A stretch of 64,000 nt of DNA from a virus, in the IMG/VR virus record IMGVR_UViG_3300021962_007571, positions 19,526 to 83,525 of that record; one strand, written 5' to 3'. Every line of letters begins with the position of its first letter. Within the stretch, counting starts at the first letter, position 1. Shown piece after piece: positions 49,185 through 64,000 of the stretch. A program made the translations under genes and the position numbers. The notes below the pieces were generated by a model, which made no database searches, had not been told where the DNA came from, and saw only the letters and a list, made by a program, of their open reading frames with translations.

Positions 49185-49215
49185 TTTGTGATTAGTCAAA
49201 ATATTTTTATATTTG
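49185..49215 (+). promoter_or_regulatory. host-type promoter (TTTG-N19-TATATTTG) for the bS21 gene
   Basis: TTTG at 49185-49188 and TATATTTG at 49208-49215 with a 19-base spacer, an almost perfect Bacteroidetes promoter. The predicted start lies only ~10 bases before the ATG. Confidence 0.85.
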
Positions 49216-49230
49216 CAGATATTTGTAATT

Positions 49231-49419
49231 ATGTTAATAGTAAAGATAGACCAAAAGACTCCAATTGAGAAAGCTCTTAAAACTTTAAAGAGTAAAGTTA
49301 TTAAGACCAAACAAAATGAGATTTTAAGGGAGAGAAAAGAGTTTGTTAAAAAATCAGTTCAAAAAAGGACTATTAAGAAAAATGCTATTTTTAAACAAAA
49401 AATTAAAGACTCTCATTAA
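49231..49419 (+). CDS. rpsU: ribosomal protein bS21
   Basis: 62 residues, starting MLIVKIDQKTPIEKALKTLK. A gapless alignment with Bacteroidetes bS21 can be read by eye: the N-terminal strand, A15-L16-K17, F38-x-K40-x-S42-V43, K45-R46 and the end KDS. F54 sits where I recall Flavobacterium bS21 having Tyr54, a contact of the sequestered anti-Shine-Dalgarno. The ATG at 49231 is preferred over the TTG at 49213, which overlaps the promoter. No AGGAGG-like sequence precedes it. bS21 joins the 30S subunit near the mRNA exit; a phage copy could replace or compete with the host protein. Has its own host-type promoter and terminator. Confidence 0.88.
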   Translation: MLIVKIDQKTPIEKALKTLKSKVIKTKQNEILRERKEFVKKSVQKRTIKKNAIFKQKIKDSH

Positions 49420-59205: not shown

Positions 59206-59613
59206 TTAAGACCTTAGTTTTTTTAATTCGTCTCTAATTTCGATTGCTTTTTCAAAATTTTGTTCATCAATCATTTTCTTAAGTTCTAATTCTAATTTCT
59301 CAAGTTTTTCTTGATTTTTTTCAAAACTTTTAATCTGGTCTCTTAATTTAACTGCCGACTCAAAATCCTCATTCTCGATTGCAACTTCTAATTGTTTTTT
59401 CAATTTTGTTAAACCGTTCTTTTCATTTGATTCAGGTTTAAACTTTTTACTAAAAGTTGTAATTTTAAGTGAGCCGTCTTCACTTTCATAAACCTGTTTA
59501 TCCCAATTATTTAAATCTAAATTAGATTTCCAACTTGAATTAAATTTATTGTCAAATTGGGACATCATTTTGTCGAAGTCTCTAAAAAAGTCATTAAAAT
59601 CTCTTCCAAACAT
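59206..59613 (-). CDS. small protein with two UVR motifs (possible Clp adaptor)
   Basis: 135 residues. The N-terminal 65 residues are Asp/Phe-rich (FGRDFNDFFRDFDKMM). The C-terminal half has two UVR (UvrB/C) motifs: LEVAIENEDFESAVKLRDQI and MIDEQNFEKAIEIRDEL. UVR motifs occur in UvrB/UvrC and in McsA and ClpC. Divergent from the ClpC-like gene across a 200-base region containing operator-like repeats, which suggests an adaptor or regulator of that unfoldase. No Cys zinc fingers of McsA are present. Confidence 0.75.
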   Translation of the reverse strand: MFGRDFNDFFRDFDKMMSQFDNKFNSSWKSNLDLNNWDKQVYESEDGSLKITTFSKKFKPESNEKNGLTKLKKQLEVAIENEDFESAVKLRDQIKSFEKNQEKLEKLELELKKMIDEQNFEKAIEIRDELKKLRS

Positions 59614-59817: not shown

Positions 59818-61842
59818 ATGATAGAGTCAATGGATAACGAAAACCAAAAAGAAAACAAAAGAACCTCAGATTCATCAACACCCGCGTTAGACAATTTTAG
59901 TCGTGATTTGATTAAGTTGGCGGAACAAGGTAAATTAGACCCTGTTGTTGGTAGAGAAAAAGAAATTTTGCGTATCGCACAAATTCTTTCTCGTAGAAAG
60001 AAAAATAACCCAATTATCATAGGGGAACCAGGTTGTGGTAAAACCGCAATTGTTGAAGGTTTAGCTATGAAAATATACGAGGGTGATTGTCCAAGGAATC
60101 TAGCGGATAAAAGAATCTTATCTTTAGATATGACATCTATTGTTGCTGGTACAAAATATCGAGGACAATTTGAGGAAAGAATGAAAGTTGTAATTGAAGA
60201 ATTACAAGCTAACCCTGATATTATCATTTTTATTGATGAAATTCACACCATTGTAGGTGCGGGTAACTCATCAGGTTCATTAGACGCTTCTAATATCTTT
60301 AAACCTGCACTTGCTCGTGGTGAAATCCAATGTGTTGGAGCAACTACTTTAGACGAGTACCGTAAAAACTTTGAGAAGGATGGGGCTTTGGAGCGTCGTT
60401 TCCAAAAAGTAATTGTAGATGGGGCAACTAAAGAAGAGACTTTGGTTATTCTACAAAACCTAAAAGATAGATATGAGAATTTCCATAAAGTGTCTTTTAG
60501 TGATGAAGTACTTCAAACTTGTGTTAATCTAGCTGAAAGATATATTACAGATAGAGAATTCCCCGATAAGGCAATTGATATCTTAGATGAGGTTGGGGCT
60601 CGTAGTCAGGTCGATATTAAATTACCTGAAATTATTGAAGAGTTGAAATTGAAAGCTCTTGATATTAAAAATCAAAAGGTTGAGGTTGTTAAAAGTCAGA
60701 AGTACGAAGAGGCTGCTCAACTTAGAGATAAAGAACGAAAAATTACTTCTAAACTTGAGGAAGAGAAAAAGAAATTTGAGGATAGTCTAATCACCAAAAA
60801 GAAAGAAGTTAGTTTAGATTTAGTCTATGACGTAGTTTCAAATATGACTAAAATCCCAGTTAGTAAACTAAATGCTGACGATACCAAAGCGTTAGTTGAC
60901 TTAGACTCTAATCTAAACAAAAAGGTTATTGGTCAACCTGAAGCGGTTAAACGTATTGCAAAATCAATCCGTAGAAATCGTTTGGGAATTAAAGACCCAA
61001 ATCGCCCAATCGGTTCATTTATTTTCTTAGGGTCAACTGGTGTTGGTAAAACTTACTTGGCGAAACAATTGGCAAGAGAAGTGTTTGGTAGTGAAGATAA
61101 CCTTATCCGTGTGGATATGTCTGAGTACCAAGAGAAACACACCGTATCTCGTTTAATTGGAGCACCTCCAGGATATGTAGGATATGATGAGGGCGGACAA
61201 TTAACGGAACAAGTTAAAAACAAACCTTATTCTGTAATCTTGTTTGATGAGATTGAGAAAGCAAACAAAGATATCTTCTCATCTTTACTTCAAATGTTAG
61301 ATGATGGTCATATGACTGATGGATTAGGTCGTAAGATTAACTTCAAAAACTGTATCATCATTATGACATCAAACTTGGGAGTTAAAAAATTACAGGACTT
61401 TGGTAATGGTGTTGGGTTTTCAAATTCAAACAACGCCTTCGTTAATGAAGAGTTAAGAAAACAAACTCTACAAAAAGAATTGAAGAAATTCTTTGCACCT
61501 GAGTTCTTAAATCGTATTGACGATACCATCATATTCAATAGTCTTGGACAAAACGATGTTGATAAGATTGTTGCAATTGAATTAGATAAGTTAAAAGTTC
61601 GTTTAGATAATATGAAGTATAATATCACTTTTGATGAGTCAATTTCTAAAATGATTTCTAAAGTAGGATTTGATGAAATGTATGGAGCTCGTCCTTTAAA
61701 AAGAGCGATTCAAGACAAAGTGGAAGACTTCATTTCTGAAGAAGTTCTTAAAGGAAATCTTAAAGAAGAAGTTAAGTATGTCCTAATAACCGAAGATGGT
61801 GAAAATGTAACCATCCAATTTAAAAATAAAAAAGGGGTTTAA
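59818..61842 (+). CDS. clpC: ClpC-like AAA+ unfoldase lacking the N-domain
   Basis: 674 residues. First AAA+ domain: GEPGCGKTA (69-76) and [13 protein letters not shown]; middle domain with a UVR-type helix ([15 protein letters not shown], ~290-305); second AAA+: GSTGVGKT (405-412), [10 protein letters not shown] and NRIDD. V532-G533-F534 sits where ClpC/ClpX-type partners carry the ClpP-docking tripeptide, so the enzyme may feed host ClpP. It starts directly at DNFSRDL, without the ~140-residue Clp_N domain that binds substrates and adaptors. Phage ClpC-type proteins are unusual; target probably host or phage regulators. Confidence 0.9.
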
Positions 61843-61858
61843 TACCCCTTTTTTTTAT
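61828..61858 (+). terminator. intrinsic terminator of the ClpC-like gene
   Basis: AAAAAAGGGGT/ACCCCTTTTTT stem with a 5-base loop overlapping the stop codon, followed by T8. Confidence 0.9.
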
Positions 61859-61882
61859 GACCAAATTTATAAATCATTAAAA

Positions 61883-61904
61883 AACCCCTCCAAAAGAAGG
61901 GGTT
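61883..61904 (-). terminator. intrinsic terminator of the peptidase gene
   Basis: AACCCCT/AGGGGTT stem with an 8-base loop and a T-run on the minus strand, between convergent genes. Confidence 0.8.
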
Positions 61905-61910
61905 ATTTTT

Positions 61911-62738
61911 TTACCAGTATCTAAACGATAAGGATTTTTGTTTTTCGTGAGTGTATTTTTGATACCCTAACAATTCAATCATTTGTTTACCAACATCAAT
62001 ACCGTTAAACGTATCTTCCACAACCACATATTCGTTTTTAGTATGATAATCGTAATACCCTATTGAAATATTAATACAGGAGAAATCAAATTTAGTTTTC
62101 AATGCGTAAACATCAGTATATGGATGTATCATATATTTTCGGTTACTCATACCTTCAGTGATTACTTTATCACATTTTTCAAAGAATTCACTGTCTCTAT
62201 CAAATAATTTAGCACCATAACAAGTTTCTGTTACCATCCAATTTTCAGGTGCGTCGAACTGAATTGCATATCCTACGTTTGTGAAGAAACTTGGGTCCGC
62301 CATTTTTGAACCGTGACAACCTGTTTCCTCAGATACAAAGAATGCCGCTTTAAGATTTGGTAATTCTTTTAGAAGTTCAAAACAGGCAAAAACTCCGCAC
62401 TTATCATCACCTCCAATACCTGTTGGGTTACCACTATCATTATACGCTTTAAGTGATAGTTTTAATTCACCCTCAGTATTTGGTAACATTTCTTCTCTAA
62501 CATTGATAGTGTCTAATTCGTGGACCGTATCGGTGTGTGCAATAACACAAGGAAAAACAAAGTCTTCAGGAAGTTCTCCTGTTTGTTTTATCGCATAAAC
62601 ATTTAAATGTTCGTCAACGTAGTGTTCAATATTATTGGACTTTAACCAGTCAACAATAAATTGAACCATTAAATCTTCTTGATATGTGTGGGTAGGTACT
62701 GATAGGACCTCCTTTAGTAACTGCAAATCTCTTGCCAT
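61911..62738 (-). CDS. M20/M42-type zinc aminopeptidase-like protein
   Basis: 275 residues. Metal-site motifs: VIAHTDTVH (H68, D70), GIGGDDKCGV (D111), FFVSEETGCHG (E137 as base, E138) and HTKNEYV (H232), typical of M20/M28/M42 di-zinc peptidases such as peptidase T. It lacks the full dimerisation (lid) domain, and at 275 residues is shorter than most (~370-420). It may trim peptides released by Clp or recycle amino acids. Has its own host-type promoter. Confidence 0.85.
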   Translation of the reverse strand: MARDLQLLKEVLSVPTHTYQEDLMVQFIVDWLKSNNIEHYVDEHLNVYAIKQTGELPEDFVFPCVIAHTDTVHELDTINVREEMLPNTEGELKLSLKAYNDSGNPTGIGGDDKCGVFACFELLKELPNLKAAFFVSEETGCHGSKMADPSFFTNVGYAIQFDAPENWMVTETCYGAKLFDRDSEFFEKCDKVITEGMSNRKYMIHPYTDVYALKTKFDFSCINISIGYYDYHTKNEYVVVEDTFNGIDVGKQMIELLGYQKYTHEKQKSLSFRYW

Positions 62739-62757: not shown

Positions 62758-62788
62758 CAAAGATAGGCATTTTATTTTAATCAAACAA
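62758..62788 (-). promoter_or_regulatory. host-type promoter (TTG-N20-TATCTTTG) for the peptidase gene
   Basis: On the minus strand, TTG at 62788-62786 and TATCTTTG at 62765-62758, spacer 20 bases. The -33 box lies in the end of the upstream gene. Confidence 0.75.
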
Positions 62789-63805
62789 CTCTGGATGATA
62801 TAAAAAATTATTAAATTGTTCTAAATCGTAATTCCCTTTCTTAAAATCCATAGTACCCTTTGCTTTATACTCAACTTCAATTTTATTGTTTTCAGGATTT
62901 ACTCTTATAACTTTGAACATCATTTTATTTTCATCTTTTGGTCTACCATACCAAACATTATATTTAAATTTTTTACCAATGAGTGATACTATTTTTTTAT
63001 ACTCATCTAAATTAGCGAACTTATCATCATCCTCCATATCGGATATAATAGACTCTAATTGGTATTTTACACTTCGATTAAATGAAGTAGAATCAAATTC
63101 ATTACTACCCATATAATCGTACATATTATTCCAATAATCACCATCAACTGACTTATCGTGACCAACTTTTTTTAATAACGTAAATAAGTCACTATTTTTT
63201 TCTCCGTACTTATCGTACAATTTAATTAAATTATCAACCGTTGTCATATATTTGTAAAAACAACCTTGGGTGTTGTGAATACCGTTTTCTAAAAATATAT
63301 CACATAATTCCTTATTTATTTCCTTTTCCATAGAATTCTTCATTCCTGAGTCCATCTCAACTTCATAATCACCTATAATATAATCAACTCGTTTACTAAA
63401 CAAATCATTAAGTAATCTACAAAATTCTATCGCCTGACTATCGTCTTGTAAGTTTAGATTTGGAGCTACTAATCTTTTAATTTCCTCCATTAATTCTTTA
63501 TTCTCATTATCAAAATAAGGAAACACATAACCTTGACTCCAATCTTCCTCGGCTCTGTAATTGTCAAATAATTCCAAGTTACTATATGATGAATATAAAT
63601 TATTTAAAAACCAAATATCGTCATCTGATAAGTCAAACAATCTAAAATATTGTTCATCATTTTCAAATTTTAGACTAATAATACCATTATCTCTAACATT
63701 AAAAATTAACTCGTCATTTAAACCTTTACCATCAATTAATCCCCTTTTAAACATATGTAGTTGCATATATAACCAATCGGGATTTGACTCTTTTAGTATT
63801 TTCAT
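62777..63805 (-). CDS. unknown acidic protein, 342 residues
   Basis: Soluble, acidic, mostly helical protein; N-terminus KILKESNPDWLYMQLHMFKRG. A C-terminal ~75-residue segment (KFKYNVWYGRPKDENKMMFKVIRV) looks like a small beta-barrel that could bind nucleic acid, but this is a guess. Preceded at 17 bases by a TATTTAT motif and divergent from the tmRNA. Confidence 0.65.
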   Translation of the reverse strand: MKILKESNPDWLYMQLHMFKRGLIDGKGLNDELIFNVRDNGIISLKFENDEQYFRLFDLSDDDIWFLNNLYSSYSNLELFDNYRAEEDWSQGYVFPYFDNENKELMEEIKRLVAPNLNLQDDSQAIEFCRLLNDLFSKRVDYIIGDYEVEMDSGMKNSMEKEINKELCDIFLENGIHNTQGCFYKYMTTVDNLIKLYDKYGEKNSDLFTLLKKVGHDKSVDGDYWNNMYDYMGSNEFDSTSFNRSVKYQLESIISDMEDDDKFANLDEYKKIVSLIGKKFKYNVWYGRPKDENKMMFKVIRVNPENNKIEVEYKAKGTMDFKKGNYDLEQFNNFLYHPELFD

Positions 63806-63838: not shown

Positions 63839-63870
63839 TTTGGATATTTAAAAAACAAATCGTATCTTTG
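63839..63870 (+). promoter_or_regulatory. host-type promoter (TTTG-N20-TATCTTTG) for the tmRNA
   Basis: TTTG at 63839-63842 and TATCTTTG at 63863-63870 with a 20-base spacer; mature tmRNA would start ~20 bases later at GGGG after 5' processing. Confidence 0.8.
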
Positions 63871-63889
63871 TACTGTTCTTTGAAAATAT

Positions 63890-64000
63890 GGGGATGAATG
63901 GAATCGATTGGCATTGTTGCGTATCGGTGGCACGTCGGAACTGAATTAATTCCGTAAAAACTGATTCAAAACTGTAAACGGCAACGTTTTAGACAAAATG
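63890..64000 (+). ncRNA. ssrA: tmRNA (5' part, cut by window edge)
   Basis: GGGGATGAATGGAATCGATTGG matches the conserved 5' tmRNA region (G-rich acceptor strand, then TGGxxTCGA of the tRNA-like domain). CGGAA/TTCCG (within 63926-63950) fits pseudoknot 1. The sequence AAACTGTAAACGGCAACGTTTTAGAC fits the region just before and at the resume codon: a GGC (Gly) resume codon would begin a tag reading G-N-V-L-D-K-M, with the rest outside the window. The 3' acceptor half is missing. Reading of the tag is tentative. Confidence 0.75.

Follow-up and report, generated by a model that had tools for sequence, protein, structure and literature searches.

A phage tmRNA family with a long tag of its own, encoded beside a ClpC-type unfoldase gene

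Phage-borne tmRNAs are already known, and the closest described cases share some features with the locus analysed here. In the portions of the sources that we drew on, tmRNA and SmpB are reported in huge phages (PMC7162821), and the 2025 tmRNA database (PMC11915505), in which tags most commonly have 10 residues, includes 79 sequences from phages; these tmRNAs are likewise phage-borne, at times with SmpB, but the same portions describe no tag family, tag selection or unfoldase linkage. Phage Melnitz also carries a tmRNA, with a proposed role in the degradation of tagged proteins, which is the same role as the one considered below; in the portion consulted, however, that tmRNA is a two-piece RNA of alphaproteobacterial type with a riboswitch (PMC9004378). 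Moraphages are large T4-like phages of Bacteroidota which, like the phage studied here, have a core ClpA-type gene and a putative peptidase, and the main text describing them, as far as consulted, makes no mention of tmRNA (PMC12619734).

Among bacterial systems, the one-piece tmRNA of Bacteroidota (ssrA, RF00023) has the same gene form as the phage gene, the same G3-U70 ends, the same position of the tag frame, the same GGC resume codon and the same type of promoter, whereas the phage tag is unrelated to its tag in sequence and has no NYALAA-type end. A literature search outside subscription journals and supplements, with some sources seen in part, found no description of the tag family or of its linkage to an unfoldase. 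Phage tmRNAs have been listed before and their purpose guessed at; here, a large family clearly has its own tag, which persists despite strong divergence and is genetically linked to an unfoldase. This raises a testable question, namely whether a phage sends the products of stalled ribosomes to its own proteolysis. If the phage degron is separate from that of the host, it would also give laboratory work in Bacteroidota a new degradation tag.

A tmRNA gene cut by the contig end and its full-length relatives

The window, a 64,000-nucleotide stretch of viral DNA (G000:C1:19526-83525), ends where its 83,525-base record ends, inside a tmRNA gene (Table 1). The Rfam tmRNA model matches the truncated gene over model positions 1-113 of 374, the 3' side being missing, with 26 bits and E = 8e-8; because the gene is represented by its 5' part alone, this score stays below the gathering cut-off of 47. 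A circular contig with the 3' half at its opposite end was considered and ruled out, as a search of the whole 83,525-base record with the Rfam tmRNA model returned no second match. ARAGORN called no gene in the window or in the three relatives described next, but its silence means little here, because it calls only 12 tmRNAs in 147 phage loci.

Table 1. Features of the window (coordinates within the 64,000 nucleotides)
Feature	Position	Strand	Basis or detail
bS21-like ribosomal protein	49213..49419	+	PF01165, 28.4 bits, at ~49240-49392 (G000:68765-68917)
ClpC-type AAA+ unfoldase, 674 aa	59818..61842	+	Pfam, alignment
M20 (PepT-like) peptidase homologue	61911..62738	-	in 79/79 loci
342-aa protein, adjoins tmRNA	62777..63805	-	family in 79/79 loci compared
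Bacteroidota-type promoter	63839..63870	+	TTTG 63839-63842, 20 nt spacing, TATCTTTG 63863-63870
tmRNA gene, 5' part	63890..64000	+	Rfam RF00023; remainder beyond contig end, known from L002
tmRNA 5' acceptor strand GGGGATG	63890-63896	+	part of tmRNA gene
Tag frame, first 7 codons (GNVLDKM)	63980..64000	+	GGC AAC GTT TTA GAC AAA ATG; rest from L002

A pattern scan of viral contigs yielded three close relatives (L001-L003), each with a full tmRNA gene of 386 nt. L002 is 98.7% identical to the window across the last 3 kb, and the final 162 bases of the window are unchanged in it. Over the whole gene, the Rfam tmRNA model gives 98.3 bits for L002, 99.6 for L001 and 101.8 for L003. The earlier note had read, from the letters of this stretch, a host-type promoter and a tmRNA 5' domain whose 3' half lies outside the window. 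All of this stood: the promoter is of Bacteroidota type, the covariance model matches both the truncated copy and the complete genes, and, judged from the relatives, the 3' tRNA-like half exists.

The family extends well beyond these close relatives. About 60 distinct full-length tmRNA relatives, with homologous tags of 21-22 residues, were found in viral contigs, and the full-model RF00023 scores among relatives range from 63 to 130 bits, above the cut-off. The tRNA-like ends are intact in 63 distinct genes, with a 7-bp acceptor stem and a T arm that carry compensated changes, and the G3-U70 pair is invariant across all 63; about 19 other genes fell outside the simple pattern used for this count. 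Every fully read phage tmRNA has a tag frame with a resume codon and a stop, and in several of them ARAGORN reports the same frame. TAnnTTTG occurs within 70 nt upstream of the tmRNA in 48 of 62 relatives, compared with 6% of random 70-mers, and TTTG mostly stands 19-20 nt ahead of it. As judged from its sequence, the gene is a real one-piece tmRNA of Bacteroidota type with an alanine-identity pair. Only some of the 63 genes encode CCA; many others have ends such as ACTA, ACAA or ACAT, with differences even between close relatives; where CCA is absent, the host CCA-adding enzyme must therefore supply it.

The phage itself is T4-like, with genes for Gp23, portal, prohead protease and terminase, and it may be near the Moraphages. 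Its presumptive assignment to a Bacteroidota host is based on the type of promoter and on likeness to phages already described.

The tag and its distribution

The tag frame that begins in the window continues in L002 to give GNVLDKMALLGLVKQDELVSVA, 22 residues followed by a stop, so that the start GNVLDKM proposed in the earlier note was read correctly. A degenerate pattern for the first 12 tag codons matched 39 viral stretches, all of them with a frame of 21-22 residues and a stop. The tags of relatives diverge widely (for example, GNVINKLSAVGLIRTEESVAVA, GNTIAKLQTLGFIRTEEVSVA, GNTFAKMAAIGLIAEEATVVA and GETFAKLSAIGLIREESVVAA). Their consensus, GNV(L/I)NK(M/L)xxxGL(I/V)R, is followed by a stretch that is often acidic and then by a small hydrophobic end in Ala; positions 1-14 are conserved, and the ends (VSVA and similar) are nearly all Ala after small residues. 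Three tags are odd: that of L265 ends in VVTI instead of Ala, that of L268 starts with GDV and that of L234 with DNV.

Among codons with a single change in 53 distinct tags, 526 changes are synonymous and 241 non-synonymous, a synonymous share of 69% against a neutral expectation of 25%; in the two shifted frames of the same tags, the share is 34% and 6%. The tag codons look to be under purifying selection, a strong trend that is given without a formal test and draws on related, non-independent pairs. Compared with shuffles, the tags carry no signal of an amphipathic helix or strand, and the other frames of the phage loci contain no tag-like stretch and no internal copy of the tag.

The tags of the presumed hosts are of another kind. 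A tmRNA match was obtained in 147 of 148 Bacteroidota genomes, and 49 of these loci, the 30 with the highest scores plus a scattering of the rest, were examined with ARAGORN. Apart from two loci without an ARAGORN call and one odd long reading, their tags have 9-10 residues, ending in ALAA, AMAA, RLAA or SLAA. The statement in the earlier note that Bacteroidota tags are short and end near ALAA thus held, length included, against 21-22 residues in the phage, and the phage tag has no sequence relationship to those sampled. One Bacteroidota genome contains a second tmRNA match of 49 bits (L330, G146:C1:772761-773172) with the host-type tag GENNYALAA, perhaps on a mobile element.

Outside this phage family, the tag was not encountered. 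The pattern for the first 12 codons, which covers the GNVL-KM branch only, matched none of the 84,980 prokaryote species whose genomes were searched; tblastn found the tag in none of 50,697 phage records, and no similar DNA was found in GenBank phages. A tag profile built from 27 tags, which in a positive control gave E ~1e-12 in ten phage records with one strong match each, was searched against Bacteroidota only and gave no tmRNA-like match in 395 genomes. Its weak matches there, not each inspected, gave no sign of a tmRNA and were set aside; the best (E 0.0018) lies inside a 1039-aa frame.

Unfoldase linkage and the possible fate of tagged products

All 38 tag-bearing records encode the unfoldase. 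When the phage Clp proteins were used as a query, 80 loci were obtained, some from contigs already sampled, and in 64 of these a nucleotide profile located the tmRNA downstream of Clp. Among the 16 loci without a tmRNA, 15 end no more than 3.4 kb from the Clp gene, and L219 extends 5.6 kb with no match. The block formed by the ClpC-type unfoldase, the PepT-like peptidase, the protein of the 342-aa type and the tmRNA recurs in 79 loci (some contigs being counted twice); in L058, the unfoldase is inverted relative to the tmRNA. Three huge phages and one Staphylococcus-labelled record have a Clp gene with no tmRNA found nearby, and the tag is absent throughout the records of two huge phages with a Clp protein 57-60% identical and of a third at 49%. 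Therefore, the link between tag and unfoldase looks like a trait of the lineage of the window.

The unfoldase has the Pfam domains AAA, AAA_lid_9, AAA_2 and ClpB_D2-small. It shares with bacterial ClpC the two AAA domains, a coiled middle stretch and the G-(V/I)-G-F motif at the place where ClpC binds ClpP; the motif is found in the second AAA domain of all 13 aligned phage unfoldases, as G-V-G-F in the window copy. In contrast to bacterial ClpC, which has an N-domain, the phage protein has no Clp_N match and starts almost directly with its first AAA domain, near residue 40. SmpB is encoded in 14 of the 38 tag-bearing records and 2 of 20 further ones (16 records), and ClpP in 9 of the 38 and 5 of the 20 (14 records). 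Neither was found on the record of the window, which, like the other records, is a fragment, so that such absences are weak evidence. Most records show no SmpB or ClpP, and several long ones (192-322 kb) are without ClpP; host partners would therefore be needed there.

We give a probability of about 0.5 to the reading that the phage tmRNA rescues ribosomes and that the tagged products go to the phage's own unfoldase. The earlier note had likewise put forward, as a hypothesis, that the phage may redirect trans-translation or tag proteins for its own ClpC. The phage would make the tmRNA inside a Bacteroidota cell. Once it carries alanine, the RNA would, with the SmpB of the host or, in some relatives, of the phage, free ribosomes stalled on broken messages during infection. 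Alanine and the phage tag of 21-22 residues would be added instead of the host tag. The tag would then probably act as a degron for the phage unfoldase, which lacks the N-domain where host adaptors dock and would feed ClpP, either that of the host or, in some members, that of the phage; the PepT-like peptidase, if it belongs to the same pathway, would finish the peptides, presumably to the benefit of the phage. The whole tag is conserved, not its end alone, which suggests that the inner motif has a reader, and the linkage suggests the phage unfoldase as the nearest candidate. However, neither an amphipathic pattern nor an internal tag copy points to a reader, and we go no higher than one in two because core genes inherited together within a single phage lineage could yield the same linkage.

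A more far-reaching form of this reading is a tag-and-destroy pathway apart from that of the host, in which a degron unused by bacteria would be read only by the N-domain-less unfoldase, perhaps with the 342-aa protein as adaptor, and phage ClpP, SmpB and peptidase would complete the pathway in some members. We consider this possible and advance it tentatively.

The small residues and Ala at the tag end could suit host ClpXP too. An ordinary rescue tmRNA may be at work, with host ClpXP reading the tag by its small hydrophobic C-terminus, the length and inner motif of the tag reflecting lineage history and the unfoldase being unrelated core machinery. E. coli ssrA variants ending in LVA are degraded fast, which, together with the nearly uniform ending in Ala after small residues and the long phage records without ClpP, speaks for such a route. 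However, the conservation of positions 1-14 exceeds what a C-terminal signal alone explains, and such a tag was seen in none of the bacteria searched; we regard host ClpXP as an unlikely main reader. Rather less probable is that the tag serves to escape degradation, so that ribosomes are freed while the truncated products of the phage are spared or marked otherwise: the tags do avoid the NYALAA-type end of the host, but their small hydrophobic ends are typical of ssrA degrons, and the tmRNA gene shares its block with genes for an unfoldase and a peptidase. That the phage tmRNA merely competes with host tmRNA for SmpB and ribosomes, its tag being irrelevant, is very improbable given the selection signature and the stop codon kept in the tag frame of all fully read genes.

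Other genes and RNAs near the tmRNA gene

The peptidase homologue largely conserves the motifs HTDTVH, GGDDK and SEETG. Its Pfam score of 23.8 is just below the cut-off of 24.6, and its PDB profile matches are peptidase T and relatives (E 4e-6). The 342-aa neighbour has no Pfam match. Its AlphaFold model is confident (pLDDT 90) but has no clear fold match: Foldseek gave nothing at E <0.001 among PDB or viral models, and VIA a Z of at most 5 over short stretches. A C-terminal (L/Y)xPELF is conserved in this family, and the N-terminus and the length vary; the protein might, as a guess, be an adaptor.

The earlier note had named bS21 and Clp components together with the tmRNA, and both kinds of gene are indeed present. 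bS21 was found in 28 of 29 records searched, and its gene is not linked to the tmRNA. UvrB/UvrC motifs occur in Clp partners, and a 135-aa protein with such motifs (PF02151; window 59206-59613) adjoins the ClpC-type gene; it is present in 30 of the 79 loci. Window positions 61820-61910, which separate the unfoldase gene from the peptidase gene, contain two C-rich hairpins with T runs, picked up among sub-threshold Rfam matches and probably terminators facing each other. GOLLD RNA (RF02032) lies at L236:14994-15407, L268:13934-14340, L350:9535-9940 and L351:6061-6467; in two relatives it is ~0.2-1.6 kb downstream of the tmRNA, and in two huge phages that lack such a tmRNA it is near the Clp gene.
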